Source: Chloroflexota bacterium
GTDB lineage: Bacteria > Chloroflexota > UBA11872
Direction of reading: 5' to 3'
NCBI GenBank assembly: GCA_011523785.1
Contig: WTFW01000164.1
Location: 1-52,096, forward strand
Length of the DNA stretch: 52,096 nt
Within the stretch, counting starts at the first letter, position 1. The number at the start of each line of letters is the position of its first letter. Below are positions 7,552 through 14,966 of this stretch, in pieces. A program made the translations under genes and the position numbers. The notes beneath the pieces were generated by a model that saw nothing but the letters and a program-made list of their open reading frames with translations, was not told the origin of the DNA and made no database searches.

Positions 7552-8430
7552 TCAGGCGGTGACGGGGATTTCCAGGAAGTCGTTGCCGAGGATGACGTCG
7601 CCGGGGAAGTTGGCGCGGGCTTCGGTGAGCATGGCGGATTGGCGTCTGGGATCGTCGGCGGTGGTGTCGAGGTGGACGAGGACGAGGCGCCTGGCGTTGG
7701 CCTGGGCGGCGATGCGGGCGGCGCCGGCGGCGCCGGTGCAGCTGGTGGCGATTTCGGGCCAGCGGTCGATGTCGTCCTGAAGATCCATGGCCATGTGGAC
7801 GAGGACGTCGGCGTCGCGGGCGAAGTCGACGAGCGCCGGAAGGGGCCGGGTGTCGCCGGAGATGACCACGGAGGCGGACGGTGTTTCAAGACGATATGAC
7901 AGTGAGTTGAGGTAGGGCTGGACGTGGCGGGCGGGGCCGGTGGTGACGGTCCAGCGGTCGCCGGCGACAACTTCGTCCTCGTCCAGTTCGTGGACGACCA
8001 ACGTCGGGAGCGTGCGGGGCATGGGGCCGCCGCGAAGCTGGTGGATGCGCTGGCTGAGGGGGTGGCGGGTGCGGGCCTGGAGATCGGGGCCGTAGACACC
8101 CTGGGGACCGAAGAGTTGATTGGTGATGCGGAGAAGCGGCGGGGGGCCGTATACGGTGAGGTCATCACCGGCGCCGGCACCCTGGTCCCAGCGGGCCATG
8201 ACGAAGTGGCCGAAGTCGGCCATGTGGTCGAAGTGGTGGTGGGTGAAGAAGAGCTGGTCGATTTGCAGCGGATCGACTGACGACGTGAAGAGATTCATGG
8301 CGGAGCCGGGGCCGAGGTCGAAGATGGCGCCGGCGCCGTCGGTGAGGACGGCGATGGATTGGCCGGCGCGGTGGGCGCGGGGGGCTGGGTTGCCGGTGCC
8401 GAGGAGGACGAGGCGCAGGTCGGTGGTCAT
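7552..8430 (-). CDS. Metallo-beta-lactamase-fold hydrolase (RNase Z-like subgroup), coupled to soxG
   Basis: A 292-residue MBL-fold protein with the metal motif THHHFDH (H64, H66, D68, H69), a further ligand His in GPARHVQP (169), the bridging Asp in SGDTRP (193), and a last His in LVLVHLD (253). The opening LRLVLLGTGNPAP is typical of RNase Z/arylsulfatase-type members. Its ATG overlaps the soxG TGA as ATGA, so it is probably translated from the sox mRNA. The usual companions of Sox operons are folate enzymes, so this partner is unexpected. It might hydrolyse a metabolite upstream or downstream of sarcosine; the substrate is unknown. Confidence 0.8.
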   Translation of the reverse strand: MTTDLRLVLLGTGNPAPRAHRAGQSIAVLTDGAGAIFDLGPGSAMNLFTSSVDPLQIDQLFFTHHHFDHMADFGHFVMARWDQGAGAGDDLTVYGPPPLLRITNQLFGPQGVYGPDLQARTRHPLSQRIHQLRGGPMPRTLPTLVVHELDEDEVVAGDRWTVTTGPARHVQPYLNSLSYRLETPSASVVISGDTRPLPALVDFARDADVLVHMAMDLQDDIDRWPEIATSCTGAAGAARIAAQANARRLVLVHLDTTADDPRRQSAMLTEARANFPGDVILGNDFLEIPVTA

Positions 8431-9032
8431 GCGGTGTTCGACTCGGGGAAGCTGAGGCCGAAGGGGTGGGCGGAGTCTTGGAGCCAGGCGGCGACGTAGG
8501 GGGCGAAGCTGCGGCGGACGATGATGTCGAAGGTGGGGGTGCCGTCGACGGCGATGAGCAGGGCCTGGGCGCGGGCGAGGAGGGTTTGGGCGCAGGCGCC
8601 GGGCGGGAAGTCGGTCGGGTGGAGGTCGAGGGCGCAGCTGCGGGCGAGGACGTCGAGTGCTGAGGGGCCTGACAGGCGAATGACCGTCTGGCCGGCACTT
8701 ATGTCAATCACGGAGGCGAAGTGGCCGGCCAGGGCAGTTTGCAACTCCCCCGCCAGCGAGCCGGAGGCGTCGGGTTCGGCGAGCAGGAGCCACTCGTCGG
8801 GTCCGAGCCAGATGGCCGTCAGGTCGTCTCCGGCGGTGGTGGTGTTGGGGGTGAGTGGGAGTTGGACGCCGAGGACTCGATGGACCGCTGACCTTGCTTC
8901 GGTATCGCCGGGGTCAAGACGCAGGTTGACGTGGGTGAGGAAGGGGCGCTCGACGAGTTGGCCGTCCGGCGGGGGCGTGTCCGCAGATTGGATTGCGCCG
9001 AGGGGTGAGCGGCGGGAGATGGGACTAGACAT
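8427..9032 (-). CDS. soxG: Sarcosine oxidase, gamma subunit
   Basis: A 201-residue protein with the gamma-subunit pattern: SPLG near the N-terminus, WLGPDEWLLLA, VIDISAGQTVIRLSGPSALDVLA, CALDLHP, and FDIIVRRSFAPYVAAWL near the end. The fold resembles part of the GcvT family. It is one of four subunits of the heterotetrameric enzyme that oxidises sarcosine to glycine, passing the methyl carbon to tetrahydrofolate and electrons to O2. Its start overlaps the end of soxA by 8 bases. Confidence 0.92.
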   Translation of the reverse strand: MSSPISRRSPLGAIQSADTPPPDGQLVERPFLTHVNLRLDPGDTEARSAVHRVLGVQLPLTPNTTTAGDDLTAIWLGPDEWLLLAEPDASGSLAGELQTALAGHFASVIDISAGQTVIRLSGPSALDVLARSCALDLHPTDFPPGACAQTLLARAQALLIAVDGTPTFDIIVRRSFAPYVAAWLQDSAHPFGLSFPESNTA

Positions 9033-12006
9033 GCTGGCGAGCGCCTTCGGGGTCGTAGAAGACGGGGTTGCAGCTGCGGGCGGGGAGCCAGCGGTCGTCG
9101 TCGAGGGTCGCTACGTAAAAGCGCTCGCCGTGGCCAGCGCCGCCGGAGACCATGGCCAGGGCGATTGAGCGGCCGAGCGTGGGGCTGCAGTAGCTGGACG
9201 TGACGTGGCCGCGCATGGGCAGAGGACGCTCGAATCCCGGGATATCGACCACGGCGCCGCCTTCGGGCAAGACTTGCGCCGGGTCGTCGCTAAGCAATCC
9301 AATGAGCTTCTTACGGTCGAGTCGCCGGGTGTCCGGACGGCTGAGGGAGCGCTTGCCGAGGAAGTCCTTGCGGCGGGAAAGCAGGCGGCCGAGGCCGACG
9401 TCATCCGGTGTGACGGAGCCGTCGGTTTCCTGGCCGACGATGATGAAGCCCTTTTCGGCTCGGAGGACGTGCATAGTCTCGGTGCCGTAGGGGGTGATGC
9501 CGAAGGGGCGGCCGGCGTCGACGAGCGCTTCCCAGACGTGGCGGGCGCGGTCGGCGGGGACGTTGATTTCGTAGGAGAGTTCGCCGCTGAAGCTGATGCG
9601 GAAGACGCGGGCGAGGACGCCGGCGACATGGCCTTCGCGGAAGGTCATGAAGGGGAAGGCCCGGCGGGCGAGCGGGATGTCGGTGCCGGCGGCGGCGAGT
9701 ACTTCGCGGCTGCGGGGTCCGGCGAGGGCGATGTTGGACCAGTGCTCGGAGACGGAGGTGAGGTAGACGCGGAGGTCGGGCCACTCGGTCTGCAGCCACT
9801 GTTCGAGCCAGGCCAGCACGGGGGCCGCGTTGGAGGTGCTGGTGAACATGAGGTAGCGCTGATCATCGAGGCGGGCGGTGACGCCGTCGTCGAAGATCAT
9901 GCCGTCCTCGCCGAGCATGAGGCCGTAGCGGCAGCGGCCGGGTCGAAGGCGCTTCCAGGCGTTGGTGTACACGCGGTCGAGGAACTCGCCGGCGTCGGGG
10001 CCGGTGATCTCGATCTTGCCGAGGGTTGAGTAGTCGAGGATGCCGACGCGGTGGCGGACGGCGAGGCACTCGCGGGCGACGGCGTCGTGCATGGATTCGC
10101 CGGGCTGGGGGTAGTACCAGGCGCGGCGCCACTGGCCGACGTTTTCGAAACGGGCGCCGGCGGCTTCGTGCCATTCCTGCATGGGGGTGACGCGGACGGG
10201 ATCGGCGAGCGGGCCGATGTGGCGCCCGGCGATGGCGCCGAGGGATACCGGGGAGTAGGCGGGGCGATGGCGGGGGGTACCGACGGAGGCCGGGTCGCGA
10301 CCGAGCAGCTCGGCGATGACACCGGTGGCTAGGGGATTGGCGAGCTTGCCCTGGTCGGGTCCCATGCCGAGGGTGGTGTAGCGCTTGACGTGCTCGATGG
10401 ATTCGAAGCCTTCGCGGAGGGAGAGGCGGAGGTCGTCGAGGGTGACGTCTTCGTGGAGGTCGACGAACTGGGGTTTGGCGCGGGCGAGGTTGCCGGGGGG
10501 GAGCCAGTAGGGCTGAATTGGAGCCTGGGCGGAATCGTTGGCCCGGGGAGCTTCGGGTTCGCTGCCGTTCGAGCGGCCAGCGGCCGCGGCTGCGGCGGAA
10601 CCGGCCTGCGTGCCCTGGCGGAGCGTGGCGGCTAGCTCCAGTTCACCCGCAACAGCGCCTGCCGGGTGGATGCCGTTGCCTGGCCTGGGCGCGAAGGCAG
10701 CGAGCGTTGGGTCCCACTCCGTTGGGCCACTGGCCTGGGCGTGGAGGTGGAGGGCGGGGGCGAAGCCGCCGGAGACGCCGAGAAGGTCGCATTCGATAGC
10801 GCCGAGGGGGGCGCCGTCCAGGGAGCAAAGCTCGGCGGCGGCGACGCGGCGACCGCCGTGGGCATGGCGGACGACCGCGCCCGGGTGGACCGGGATGCCC
10901 TGCGCTCGGGCTTCGGATGGAAGATCGCCGTCGGGATCGGTACGCACGTCGGCGATGGCGGCGACGGGGACTCCGGCATCGGTTAGATCGAGGGCGGTGC
11001 GGTAGGCGGCGTCGTTGTTGGTGAAGAGGACGGCGCGCGAGCCGGGGGCGACGGCGTAGCGGTGGACGTAGGTGGAGATGGCGCCGGCGAGCATGACGCC
11101 GGGGCGGTCGTTGTTGGCGAAGAGCAGGGGGCGTTCGTGGGCGCCGGTGGCGAGAACGATCTGTTTGGGCAGTACGCGCCAGACGCGGGCACCGCTTTCG
11201 GAACCGGCGTCGTCCGGCTGGTCGGCGAGTAGACGCTCGGCCAGGAGGACGAGGTTGCTCTCGTAGAGGCCGAAGGCGGTGGTGTTGGGGAGGAGGGTGA
11301 CACCGGGGGCCGCGGTGAGTTCGGCGGTAACGGCGTCGGCCCAATCGGGTCCGGGGAGGTCATCGACTCGCTCGCGACTGGCGAGGAGGCTTCCGCCTGG
11401 CTCTGCCTGCTCGTCGACAAGGATCACGCGCGCTCCGGTGTGTGCGGCTGCGCGGGCAGCGGCGAGGCCGGCGGGGCCGGCGCCGACGACCAGCACGTCG
11501 CAATGAGCGTGGACGTGGTCGTAGCGGTCGGGATCGGGGGCATCCGGCGCGTGGCCGAGGCCGGCGGCGTGGCGCAGGAAGTGCTCGTAGAGCGGCCAGA
11601 ACCGGCGGGGCCACATGAGGGTCTTGTAGTAGAAGCCGGCGGGAATGAAGGGGGCCACGAGGCCGAAGGCGGACATGACGTCGTATTCGAGGGTTGGCCA
11701 GGCGTTGACGTGGCGAACCTTCAGGCCGGGGGTGGCCGCGGTGACGGTGGCCAGCCGGTTGGGCAACGTGCGAGCGCCGTGGCCGAGCTGGACGAAGGCG
11801 TTGGGATCCTCGGCACCGGCGGAGACGATGCCGCGGGGTCGGTGGTACTTGAAGCTGCGGCCGACCAGGGTGACGCCGCTGGCGAGGAGGGCGGAGGCGA
11901 CGGTGTCGCCGCGGTAGGCGTCGATGGGGCGTCCGTCGAAGGTGAACTGAATGGGCGTGTCGCGGTCGATGCGGCCGCCGCGGTCGAGGCGGAAGGGCTG
12001 GCTCAC
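9025..12006 (-). CDS. soxA: Sarcosine oxidase, alpha subunit
   Basis: A 993-residue protein starting at GTG 12006, which overlaps the soxD TGA as GTGA; the open frame further upstream is antisense noise. Domains in order: an N-terminal ferredoxin-like (Fer2_4) region with FTFDGRPIDAYRGDTVASAL, an FAD/NAD Rossmann domain with DVLVVGAGPAGLAAA (170-184), and a C-terminal GcvT-like tetrahydrofolate domain (about 620-990) with VGILDYSTLGKIEITGPDAG. The alpha subunit holds NAD and the folate-binding chamber that receives formaldehyde. Length and layout match known tetrameric sarcosine oxidases. Confidence 0.95.
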   Translation of the reverse strand: MSQPFRLDRGGRIDRDTPIQFTFDGRPIDAYRGDTVASALLASGVTLVGRSFKYHRPRGIVSAGAEDPNAFVQLGHGARTLPNRLATVTAATPGLKVRHVNAWPTLEYDVMSAFGLVAPFIPAGFYYKTLMWPRRFWPLYEHFLRHAAGLGHAPDAPDPDRYDHVHAHCDVLVVGAGPAGLAAARAAAHTGARVILVDEQAEPGGSLLASRERVDDLPGPDWADAVTAELTAAPGVTLLPNTTAFGLYESNLVLLAERLLADQPDDAGSESGARVWRVLPKQIVLATGAHERPLLFANNDRPGVMLAGAISTYVHRYAVAPGSRAVLFTNNDAAYRTALDLTDAGVPVAAIADVRTDPDGDLPSEARAQGIPVHPGAVVRHAHGGRRVAAAELCSLDGAPLGAIECDLLGVSGGFAPALHLHAQASGPTEWDPTLAAFAPRPGNGIHPAGAVAGELELAATLRQGTQAGSAAAAAAGRSNGSEPEAPRANDSAQAPIQPYWLPPGNLARAKPQFVDLHEDVTLDDLRLSLREGFESIEHVKRYTTLGMGPDQGKLANPLATGVIAELLGRDPASVGTPRHRPAYSPVSLGAIAGRHIGPLADPVRVTPMQEWHEAAGARFENVGQWRRAWYYPQPGESMHDAVARECLAVRHRVGILDYSTLGKIEITGPDAGEFLDRVYTNAWKRLRPGRCRYGLMLGEDGMIFDDGVTARLDDQRYLMFTSTSNAAPVLAWLEQWLQTEWPDLRVYLTSVSEHWSNIALAGPRSREVLAAAGTDIPLARRAFPFMTFREGHVAGVLARVFRISFSGELSYEINVPADRARHVWEALVDAGRPFGITPYGTETMHVLRAEKGFIIVGQETDGSVTPDDVGLGRLLSRRKDFLGKRSLSRPDTRRLDRKKLIGLLSDDPAQVLPEGGAVVDIPGFERPLPMRGHVTSSYCSPTLGRSIALAMVSGGAGHGERFYVATLDDDRWLPARSCNPVFYDPEGARQHV

Positions 12007-12269
12007 GTCGAGCCGCCGTAGGTGCCGGCGCCGAGGATCTCGTTGGTGACGGTGTCGCGTTCGACGATGAACCAGCGGCGGCAGCCGGCGGTGTGGCACC
12101 ACTGCTCGCGGTGGCGGCCGCGACGGTTGTCCCGCATGAACAGGTAGTCGGCCCACTGCTCGTCGGTGAGCGCGTCGGGGTCGGCGGGGCGGGGGATGTC
12201 GGCTTCGCCGCCGAAGGTGAACTCGTCGTCCTCGCGGGGTCCGCACCAGGGGCAGGGGATCAGGAGCAT
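12003..12269 (-). CDS. soxD: Sarcosine oxidase, delta subunit
   Basis: An 88-residue zinc-binding subunit. The opening LIPCPWCGPRE and later QWCHTAGCRRWF carry the Cys/His ligands; EFTFGGEA and EQWADYLFMRDN are also typical of the family. It sits between soxB (4-base gap) and soxA (4-base overlap). Its role in the complex is structural. Confidence 0.95.
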   Translation of the reverse strand: MLLIPCPWCGPREDDEFTFGGEADIPRPADPDALTDEQWADYLFMRDNRRGRHREQWCHTAGCRRWFIVERDTVTNEILGAGTYGGST

Positions 12270-12273
12270 GGGA

Positions 12274-13524
12274 TCAGTGGGCGACGGCGGCGGCGCCGTG
12301 CTCGTCGATCAGGGCGCCGGTGGTGAAACGATCGAGGGCGAACGGCTCGTTGAGGGGGTGCGGTTCCTGGTGGGCGAGGGTGTGGGCGAAGACCCAGCCG
12401 GAGCCGGGGGTGGCCTTGAAGCCGCCGGTGCCCCAGCCGCAGTTCATGTAGAGGCCCTTGATCGGGGTGCCGGAGATGATGGGGCTGGCGTCGGGGCAAA
12501 CATCCACGGTGCCGGCCCACTGCCGCAGCATGCGGACGCGGCTGAAGATGGGGAATAGCTCGCAGACGGCTGCGAGGACGTGCTCGATGATGCGGAAGTT
12601 GCCGTTGAGGTCGTAGCTGACGGGGGCGTCGATGCCGGCGCCGAGGACCAGTTCACCGCGGTCGGTCTGGTGGACGTAGACGTGGACGGCGGCGGACATG
12701 ACGACGGGGTCGAAGACCGGCTTGAGGGGCTCGGTGACAAGGGCCTGGAGCGGGTGGGACTGGATGGGGAGGCGGATGCCGGCCATGGAGGCGAGGACGC
12801 TGGCGTTGCCGGCGACGACGAGGCCTACGGCGCCGGCGCGGATCTCGCCGCGGGTGGTTTCGAGCGAGGTGACGCGGCCGTTGGCGGTGCGGATACCGGT
12901 GACTTCGCAGTTCTCGATGATGTCGACACCGAGCGCGTCGGCGGCGCGGGCGTAGCCCCAGGCGACGGCGTCGTGGCGGGCCACGCCGCCGCGGCGCTGC
13001 AGGGTTCCGCCGAGGACGGGGTAGCGGGTATCGGGTGAAGTATTGAGGATGGGGACGAGTCTGCTTATCTCATCGGTGGACAGCAGTTCAGCGTCGATGC
13101 CGTTGAGCTGGTTGGCGCCGACGCGGCGGGCGAGGTCGCGCACTTCCTGCTCGGAGTGCGCGATGTTGAGCAAGCCACGCTGGCTGAACATGACGTTGTA
13201 GTTGAGTTCCTGGCTGAGGCCTTCCCAGAGCTTGAGGGAGAACTCGTAGATGTGGGCACTGGCGTCCCAGAGGTAGTTGGAGCGAACGATGGCGGTGTTG
13301 CGGCCGATGTTTCCGCCGCCCAGCCAGCCGCGCTCGAGCACGGCGACGTTGGTGACGCCGTGGAGCTTCGCGAGGTAGTAGGCGGTGGCCAAGCCGTGGC
13401 CGCCAGCGCCGACGATGATGACGTCGTAAGCCGGCTTTGGCTCAGCCTTGCGCCAGGCGGGAGTCCAGTCGCGGTGGCCGCGCAGGCCGCGACGGATGAG
13501 GTTGGGGAGCGAGTAGAACTGCAT
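12274..13524 (-). CDS. soxB: Sarcosine oxidase, beta subunit
   Basis: A 416-residue flavoprotein. ATG 13524 gives [20 protein letters not shown], close to known beta subunits; the frame extends to 13614 without SoxB-like sequence. The FAD site is [19 protein letters not shown] (about 36-54), followed by [20 protein letters not shown]. His184 in [12 protein letters not shown] matches the residue that covalently binds FMN in characterised enzymes. The beta subunit carries the sarcosine-oxidising active site. First gene of soxBDAG; no SD is obvious. Confidence 0.95.
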
Positions 13525-13618
13525 GCGCGGCCCGGGGTGTTGGGGGTGAGGAAAGCGTAGCGCGGTTGGGACGGCTTGCGTACGGGGATGGAGGCGCGGC
13601 GTTCTACGGGACATGGAG

Positions 13619-13736: not shown

Positions 13737-13976
13737 CTAGCCGGCCAAACGATCCACGGCGATCACCACGCCAGCGGCCGCAGCGGCCGCTGCAAGAACG
13801 AGCCCGGCGAGCCAACGGGTCTGTGAAGCCATGGCGGCGGTCAGTTCGGCCATGGCGGCAGTGAGACGGGTTTCGAGGGCGGCCAAGTCGGCCTTGGTGG
13901 CGTAGTGACGCAAAGTGCGGTCCAGTTCCTCGCGCAATTCAGAGCGAGTGAGCGGGGGTTCTTCGATGGCCGTCAA
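13737..13976 (-). CDS. Coiled-coil tail-anchored membrane protein, paralogue 1
   Basis: A 79-residue protein reading from TTG 13976, preceded by GGAGGAGG; an ATG at 13997 is possible but lies before that SD. Layout: an acidic/basic helix PLTRSELREELDRTLRHYATKADLAALETR (written in parts: PLTRSELREELDR, TLRHYATKADLAALETR), a short stalk LTAAMAELTAAMASQ, then a hydrophobic helix at about 55-73 and the tail VDRLAG. The C-terminal helix predicts tail anchoring with the coiled coil in the cytoplasm. Two close paralogues lie immediately upstream; compared with paralogue 2 the stalk holds one extra 7-residue unit. The family resembles DUF1640/CCDC90-type proteins only in general design. Function unknown. 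Confidence 0.75.
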   Translation of the reverse strand: MTAIEEPPLTRSELREELDRTLRHYATKADLAALETRLTAAMAELTAAMASQTRWLAGLVLAAAAAAAGVVIAVDRLAG

Positions 13977-14019
13977 GCCAATGCCTCCTCCGCCCATGAA
14001 TGGAACCGATGTCCTGAAT

Positions 14020-14030
14020 TGATCGTTGCA
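14020..14030 (-). promoter_or_regulatory. Conserved upstream box, paralogue 1 copy
   Basis: TGCAACGATCA on the minus strand, 44 bases upstream of the paralogue 1 start. The same box, with at most one change, occurs at the equivalent place before paralogues 2 and 3. Conservation in otherwise diverged spacers suggests a promoter element or operator. Confidence 0.45.
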
Positions 14031-14104
14031 TGCCGATGGTTCTCCGGCAAGCAGCCACTAGCTCGAGCGAATCCGGGCTGCCCGGGTCGGGCCGCCCGGC
14101 GCCG

Positions 14105-14320
14105 TCAGACTGCCAGGCGATCGACCGCGATCACGACGCCGGCGGCGGCCGCTGCCGCCGCAAGAACCAGCCCGGCGAGCCAGCGGGTCTGCGAGGCCAT
14201 GGCGGCGGTGATGCGGGTTTCGAGGGCAGCCAAATCTGCCTTGGTCGCGTAGTGGCGCAAGGTGCGGTCAAGCTCCTCACGCAGTTCAGAGCGGGTGAGC
14301 GGGGCTTCTTCAATGGCCAT
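14105..14320 (-). CDS. Coiled-coil tail-anchored membrane protein, paralogue 2
   Basis: A 71-residue protein from ATG 14320, with GGTGGAAGG ending 9 bases upstream. It is nearly identical to paralogue 1 through the N-terminal helix (SELREELDRTLRHYATKADL) and the membrane helix (WLAGLVLAAAAAAAGVVIAV). Its stalk is the shortest of the three (ITAAMASQ). It ends VDRLAV rather than VDRLAG. A separate promoter is likely, given the conserved box at 14367-14377. Confidence 0.75.
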   Translation of the reverse strand: MAIEEAPLTRSELREELDRTLRHYATKADLAALETRITAAMASQTRWLAGLVLAAAAAAAGVVIAVDRLAV

Positions 14321-14366
14321 CAGGCCTATCCTTCCACCGCCCATGGATAAATACGACAACCTGCAC

Positions 14367-14377
14367 TGATCGTTGCA
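14367..14377 (-). promoter_or_regulatory. Conserved upstream box, paralogue 2 copy
   Basis: TGCAACGATCA on the minus strand, identical to the paralogue 1 copy, 47 bases upstream of the paralogue 2 ATG. Confidence 0.45.
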
Positions 14378-14451
14378 CTTCGACGCAACTCAAGCAAGGT
14401 GAAACGAGGTCCCGCCGGTTCACTCGACGAGTAGAGGGCCGTGCCGGGTGT

Positions 14452-14844
14452 CTAGCCGGCCAGACGGTCGACGGCGATTACGACACTGGTGGCCGCAGCC
14501 GCAGCCGCCAGCACAAGTCCGGCCAGCCAGCGGGTCTGCGCGGCCATGGCGGACGAGTGTGCGGCTGCCTGGGCGGCCATGGTGGACGTCAGCGCGTCCG
14601 ACTGGGCGGCCATGGCGGACGTCAGTGCGTCCGACTGCGCGGCCATGGCGGACGAGTGCGCGGCTGCCTGGGCGGCCATGGCGGAGGTCAGCGCTTCGGA
14701 CTGGGCGGCCATGGCCTTCGTGATGCGAGTTTCGAGGGCAGCCACGTCAGCCCTGGTTGCATAGTGGCGAAGGTTGCGATCCAACTCCTCACGCAATTCG
14801 GTACGCAATTCAGCGCGGGTGAGCGGGGTCATCTCGACTGCCAT
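14452..14844 (-). CDS. Coiled-coil tail-anchored membrane protein, paralogue 3 with five 11-residue repeats
   Basis: A 130-residue protein from ATG 14844, preceded by GGTGGAAGG. The N-terminal helix (TPLTRAELRTELREELDR) and the C-terminal membrane helix match paralogues 1 and 2. Residues 44-98 are five tandem 11-residue units alternating between AMAAQSDALTS and AMAAQAAAHSS types. Eleven-residue periodicity is typical of hendecad (nearly straight or right-handed) coiled coils. Only the stalk length differs between the three paralogues, as in a molecular spacer. The open frame continues upstream to 15402, but that part is antisense to the permease gene. Function unknown. Confidence 0.75.
   Translation of the reverse strand: MAVEMTPLTRAELRTELREELDRNLRHYATRADVAALETRITKAMAAQSEALTSAMAAQAAAHSSAMAAQSDALTSAMAAQSDALTSTMAAQAAAHSSAMAAQTRWLAGLVLAAAAAATSVVIAVDRLAG
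14551..14715 (-). repeat. Five tandem 33-bp coding repeats
   Basis: Five in-frame 33-bp units encode the hendecad stalk of paralogue 3. On the plus strand each unit contains GGCGGCCATGGC or a one-base variant. Units fall into two sequence types, pointing to expansion by unequal exchange or slippage. Confidence 0.8.
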
Positions 14845-14891
14845 CGTGGCTAGACCTTCCACCGCCCAAGTTTGGATCCGATATCCAAGTT

Positions 14892-14902
14892 TGATTGTTG
14901 CA
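14892..14902 (-). promoter_or_regulatory. Conserved upstream box, paralogue 3 copy
   Basis: TGCAACAATCA on the minus strand (one change from the other two copies), 48 bases upstream of the paralogue 3 ATG. Confidence 0.4.
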
Positions 14903-14966
14903 CCGCACCTGCGTTGCGGCAATGCGCGATTCGGCCAAACCTGCGCGGGCCGTGGAGGTGCTGGGG

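Follow-up and report, generated by a model that had tools for sequence, protein, structure and literature searches.

Tandem tail-anchored paralogues of unequal stalk length in Chloroflexota, apparent short-headed relatives of DUF1640/CCDC90 proteins

A stretch of 52,096 nucleotides from a Chloroflexota bacterium (contig WTFW01000164.1, hereafter referred to as the window) carries three tandem genes, P1, P2 and P3, encoding tail-anchored helical proteins with stalks of unequal length. In our preferred reading, to which we give an even chance of being right, P1-P3 are tandem members of a lineage-expanded, short-headed family of the DUF1640/CCDC90 kind, whose proteins would form bundles held by a beta-layer and would act as scaffolds or spacers in the form of cytoplasmic rods of graded reach. 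The bundle half of this picture, the likeliest one, draws on the fold and on kinship, and the graded-height half on the arrays; “graded membrane spacers” is a plausible description of the set.

The three genes share one layout: a short N-terminal helix is followed by an ATKAD or ATRAD break and a helical stalk, and a single membrane helix lies at the C-terminus. P3 (14452-14844, minus strand) specifies 130 aa comprising a head, the ATRAD break, a 70-residue stalk with five 11-residue units and the membrane helix, P2 (14105-14320, minus strand), the shortest paralogue, specifies 71 aa from an ATG with a stalk of 15, and P1 (13737-13976, minus strand) specifies 79 aa from a TTG, or 86 aa from an ATG at 13997, with a stalk of 22, stalk length being counted in residues from the end of ATK/RAD to TRW. 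The initial annotation had placed three tandem paralogues with unequal stalks here, with one 7-residue unit added in P1 and five 11-residue units in P3; the three minus-strand ORFs and their residue counts bear this out, the P1 stalk being that of P2 plus one heptad and the P3 stalk that of P2 plus 5 x 11 residues. Tandem Repeats Finder (TRF) delimits a 33-bp repeat of 5.5 copies which encodes the P3 hendecad stalk (14536-14715, minus strand), as well as a gene-scale tandem of 347 bp. The N-terminal and membrane helices had also been described as nearly identical in all three genes, which is correct overall, but the P3 helix carries four additional residues (RTELREEL) and its anchor contains ATS where P1 and P2 contain AAG. 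The neck motif is YATKAD in P1 and P2, YATRAD in P3 and LATKAD in other family members. Because the ATG start of the P1 orthologue in genome G010 is replaced by ACG in the present genome, the start of P1 is uncertain (window 13737-13997), with the in-frame TTG and the ATG further upstream as the remaining options.

P1, P2 and P3 are real genes under strong purifying selection. Among the P2 orthologues of six species, omega ranges from 0.00 to 0.15 at dS values of up to 0.79, while the other arrays mostly give 0.00-0.32, with single close pairs reaching 0.50. The P3 stalk compared with its orthologue in G009 yields an omega of 0.07, and the order of the unit types is preserved. Considering that omega is far below 1 for both the P2 orthologues and the P3 stalk, these ORFs are not due to chance. 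A high-GC genome does contain many spurious frames, and repeats or antisense frames might have been misread as ORFs; this explanation retains virtually no weight and is already refuted, since several sites give omega values far below 1 and synteny is conserved. The initial annotation had staked its proposal on homologues not always being single-copy with random stalk lengths and on the ORFs being under purifying selection, and it survives on both counts.

The AlphaFold2 (AF2) model of P3, a monomer prediction based on an alignment of 57 family sequences that comprises paralogues and close relatives only, consists of a helix at residues 10-26, a break at 27-30 (HYAT of HYATRAD) and a single unbroken helix at 31-129, with a mean pLDDT of 87. 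In 89 of the 134 distinct family ORFs, the best hydrophobic segment stops five residues short of the C-terminus, and the missing N-terminal signal together with a basic residue beside the anchor suggests that the rod lies on the cytoplasmic side. The helix rise predicts stalk heights above the membrane of 2.2 (P2), 3.3 (P1) and 10.5 nm (P3). The stability of the P3 coiled coil is uncertain, since its stalk is rich in Ala and contains few large hydrophobic residues. Of the membrane-attached helical rods that had been proposed, the tail-anchored, helical and conserved character is upheld, whereas the notion of their lengths as selected spacers is not supported. Foldseek returned no PDB match for the P3 model, and the top hits of a PDB profile search, among them 6h9l and 5apz, were non-significant; a head-bearing relative matches 6h9l, a structure of three chains, at 1.5e-10.

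Searches of the window proteins against Pfam, NCBIfam, PADLOC and PDB sequences gave nothing above cut-off, and the curated cut-off of PF07798 (33.5 bits) was reached by none of them, the best wider-family member in the scan (L155) scoring 32.8 bits. Members of array IV match the stalk-anchor end of PF07798 (E of 1.4e-5 and 1e-4), and hhalign aligned neck, stalk and anchor of the window family with those of head-bearing DUF1640-like proteins from the same class (probability 92%, E about 8e-7, two of the ten A3 rows having been entered without some internal repeats). The motif [aliphatic]-A-T-K-[polar]-[DE] has been described as a beta-layer at the start of the DUF1640 C-terminal stalk in prokaryotes and mitochondria (PMC4786415). 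P1, P2 and P3 carry such a neck at the position of the helix break in the AF2 model, followed by the stalk and a single C-terminal membrane helix; their neck deviates from the strict consensus by Y as first and A as fifth residue, and DUF1640-like members of sister lineages likewise have LATKAD. These head-bearing sister proteins are composed of a head, the LATKAD neck, extended tracts of 11-residue repeats, an anchor and a short tail, and one of them (L216, 2586-3215) contains approximately ten near-identical ATKADMQELAQ units. The DUF1640 head (DTHKAxxxLTxAGFSExQAEALI type) is present in sister-lineage proteins among loci L213-L232 and absent from the window proteins. Given this absence, and as no Pfam cut-off was passed, P1-P3 are called relatives rather than members; by sequence they appear to be short-headed relatives of the DUF1640/CCDC90 kind. 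The earlier remark that no described system of this type was known is not supported, as the neck-stalk-anchor plan has its precedent in DUF1640/CCDC90 proteins.

The source lineage consists of sponge-associated Chloroflexota metagenome-assembled genomes (MAGs), and the named relatives, such as RHO1_bin_32, COS2_bin_4 and SB0662_bin_61, are Chloroflexota MAGs. RHO and COS in these bin names probably stand for the sponges Rhopaloeides and Coscinoderma, both of which are mentioned in PMC8163846. When the 13 genomes of the genus were searched with a profile built from ten paralogues, 11 yielded 14-37 family matches each, one yielded two and another, which is incomplete, yielded none; elsewhere in the class, genera have 0-6 matches each at a stricter limit. 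The loci analysed, from MAGs or draft assemblies in which some arrays end at contig ends, contain 126 ORFs at 82 places, a count that includes a few broken members and one opposite-strand pair; 33 of the places hold clusters of two or more ORFs and 49 hold single genes. A family relative was also observed in the Gammaproteobacteria MAG SB0665_bin_27 (L150, 5866-6162).

The search for other arrays proposed by the initial annotation was productive, as arrays of unequal-length paralogues were found at five or more sites, and at least five syntenic tandem sites (I-V) recur across species with the same flanks. Site I, that of the window, is flanked by genes for a CitMHS/SLC13-type permease and a DAO-family oxidoreductase; site II (stalks of 9 and 16) by a cluster resembling secE, nusG and ribosomal protein genes and by a Rieske protein gene; site III (15, 22 and 29) adjoins an adenosine deaminase gene; site IV (19 and 30) lies near a large aminoacyl-tRNA-synthetase-like gene; and site V often has a short gene next to a long one (23-48). 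Intact same-strand neighbours are nearly always unequal in stalk length, the exception seen being a pair 1.2 kb apart on contig C7 of G007. Three tandem ATKAD-stalk genes with unequal stalks occur in another family of the class (L223, 2375-3855), and unequal arrays are therefore not confined to the genus of the window. At another locus (L125, 5950-8665), short genes with an RLEGAYDHL head alternate in tandem with long genes with an LTAIEAALPTF head, as if the pair had been duplicated as a unit. A sarcosine-oxidase-type cluster (DAO oxidoreductase, GCV_T and SO_alpha_A3 domains) lies downstream of the window array at 8427-13614; since other arrays adjoin unrelated genes, a link to sarcosine oxidase as general function was rejected, and the neighbour genes, with flanks that vary between sites, offer no functional cue. 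Phage origin is likewise unsupported: tblastn with one family member found no match in phage records, an IMG/VR search returned two distant loci, and PHROG matches were partial and coiled-coil-like. Rfam hits on the array were at chance level.

Each window gene is preceded by a related 5’ leader on the minus strand, the extents being approximate: 14845-14905 for P3, with TGCAACAATCA and GGGCGG, 14321-14381 for P2, with TGCAACGATCA and GGGCGG, and 13977-14036 for P1, with TGCAACGATCA and a GGGCGG core within 13984-13999. GGGCGG occurs no more than 90 nt before the start in 74 of 113 family genes (65%), as against 32 of 302 control intergenic upstreams (11%), for which a simple rule served to predict the start codons; counted once per distinct C-terminus, it is present in 38 of 67. 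Its reverse complement was found in none of the 113 family genes and in 33 of the 302 controls. A -10-like hexamer precedes GGGCGG in 26 of 51 representatives (shuffle expectation 12.2, maximum 21 in 200 shuffles), often at a distance of 7 or 17 nt, which probably places the leader close to the 5’ end of the transcripts. Matches in the genus to the longer leader pattern of sites I and III are mostly family genes. The leader suggests that dispersed copies are regulated in common or that the entire gene unit is of common descent. A stronger proposal holds that the 14-37 matches per genome, mostly with GGGCGG leaders, constitute genus-wide, commonly regulated, membrane-anchored molecular rulers in which each site is a height ladder for the same head; this we regard as unlikely.

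Whether stalk lengths are kept or vary differs between sites. All 27 stalks at site I fit 15+11n or 22+11n, and the coiled-coil register is thus kept. The P3-like clade has stalks of 70, 59, 70 and 37, the 70 of G011 being sister to that clade, whereas P2 retains its 15 residues in every relative species that holds the gene. When site-I lengths were shuffled among arrays with the 15-residue gene set aside, 51% of the trials contained no equal pair (P = 0.51), so that the distinct long lengths need no selection; with that gene included, P falls to 0.018, reflecting its orthology. Shuffling gave no sign of selection for distinct lengths at the window’s site: distinctness beyond the invariant gene is at shuffle level, and the P3 orthologues vary. 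Comparing stalk lengths within arrays, as had been advised, gave a divided answer: the long member of the window varies, but at site III the heptad ladder of 15, 22 and 29 is identical in every species where each copy is present. The stronger argument for a length ladder that is kept comes from site III, although its five species still amount to one inherited arrangement.

The main rival explanation is length drift, in which genes duplicate in tandem and gain or lose 33-bp units through slippage or unequal recombination, while selection keeps the register and not the length. The register-keeping lengths of array I, P3 orthologues that differ by 11 or 33 residues and long copies without an excess of distinct lengths are what such drift predicts, and a broken copy in G012, frameshifted after the head (L069, 5436-5774), fits as well. 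The anchors of three array copies in G011 are 0.95-0.98 identical, which suggests gene conversion in some arrays and again favours drift. Against it, sites II, III and IV keep their lengths across species, the P2 stalk does not change, and the P3 stalk is itself under purifying selection; on balance we hold drift to be a serious possibility, though a doubtful one. Alternatively, short and long paralogues may be subunits of mixed bundles, with the length difference arising incidentally as the subunits specialised. A precedent comes from yeast, where the MCUR1 homologues Put6 and Put7 belong to one hetero-oligomeric complex (PMC7519068); adjacent genes with near-identical neck and anchor have unequal stalks, and short-plus-long pairing recurs at site V and the window’s site; yet many members are single genes (49 of the 82 places), and most of the long stalk would go unpaired if chains that differ by 55 residues shared a parallel bundle, which makes mixed bundles decidedly improbable to us. 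It is more improbable still, to the point of being far-fetched, that the rod tethers a conflict or signalling adaptor to the membrane with the head as a domain of the effector-associated type: the head of two members from another site weakly matches EAD10 (E 0.0028 and 0.0054), but this is below the Pfam cut-off, effector neighbours do not recur, and each PADLOC family with a match is hit by a single member, as expected of a coiled coil.

Under the preferred reading of scaffolds or spacers with graded reach, the helix break at ATK/RAD would form a beta-layer that ties the chains into parallel bundles, probably trimers by comparison with solved beta-layer proteins. The rod would extend into the cytoplasm from a C-terminal anchor seated in the cytoplasmic membrane. 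The stalk itself grows and shrinks in register-keeping steps, mostly of 11 and 7 residues. Arrays could in this way supply each cell with rods that reach about 2, 3 and 10 nm from the membrane and carry a common short head at these different heights. If stalk length distinguishes the copies, the family would offer a natural length series of one protein within one cell, which is rare material on the purpose of membrane-bound coiled coils. Proteins of the DUF1640/MCUR1 type occur widely in bacteria and mitochondria, and there is dispute over their basic function; a head-poor form multiplied in one lineage provides paralogue sets for studying the neck-stalk-anchor part alone.

Among known systems, XhlA proteins have a membrane helix at the C-terminus, preceded by a short coiled coil, and the XhlA type of phage and Bacillus (PF10779, phrog_1193) is weakly matched by a few family members; the window proteins do not match PF10779, their neighbours are the permease and sarcosine oxidase genes rather than lysis genes, and the family differs in its tandem arrays and ATKAD neck. 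Trimeric autotransporter stalks share long coiled coils, beta-layers and variable repeat number (PMC4786415), but are exported outer-membrane fibres, whereas no signal peptide or beta-barrel anchor was seen in the window family. The beta-layer coiled coils of Tcar0761 (5apz) and DUF3782 stalks share the consensus motif and a repeat-built stalk (PMC4786415); the window family usually has one motif rather than many, possesses a membrane anchor and is devoid of the endonuclease domain. The closest likeness is to DUF1640/CCDC90-like proteins (PF07798; MCUR1, CCDC90B, yeast Put6/Put7 and bacterial homologues), with which it has in common the ATKxD neck, a register-keeping repeat stalk and one C-terminal membrane helix, and from which it differs by a short LTRxELREELDRTL or RLEGAYEHL helix and by tandem arrays of unequal length. 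New relative to these systems are the expansion of the family in this lineage, the recurrence of arrays with unequal stalk lengths and the strand-specific GGGCGG leader.
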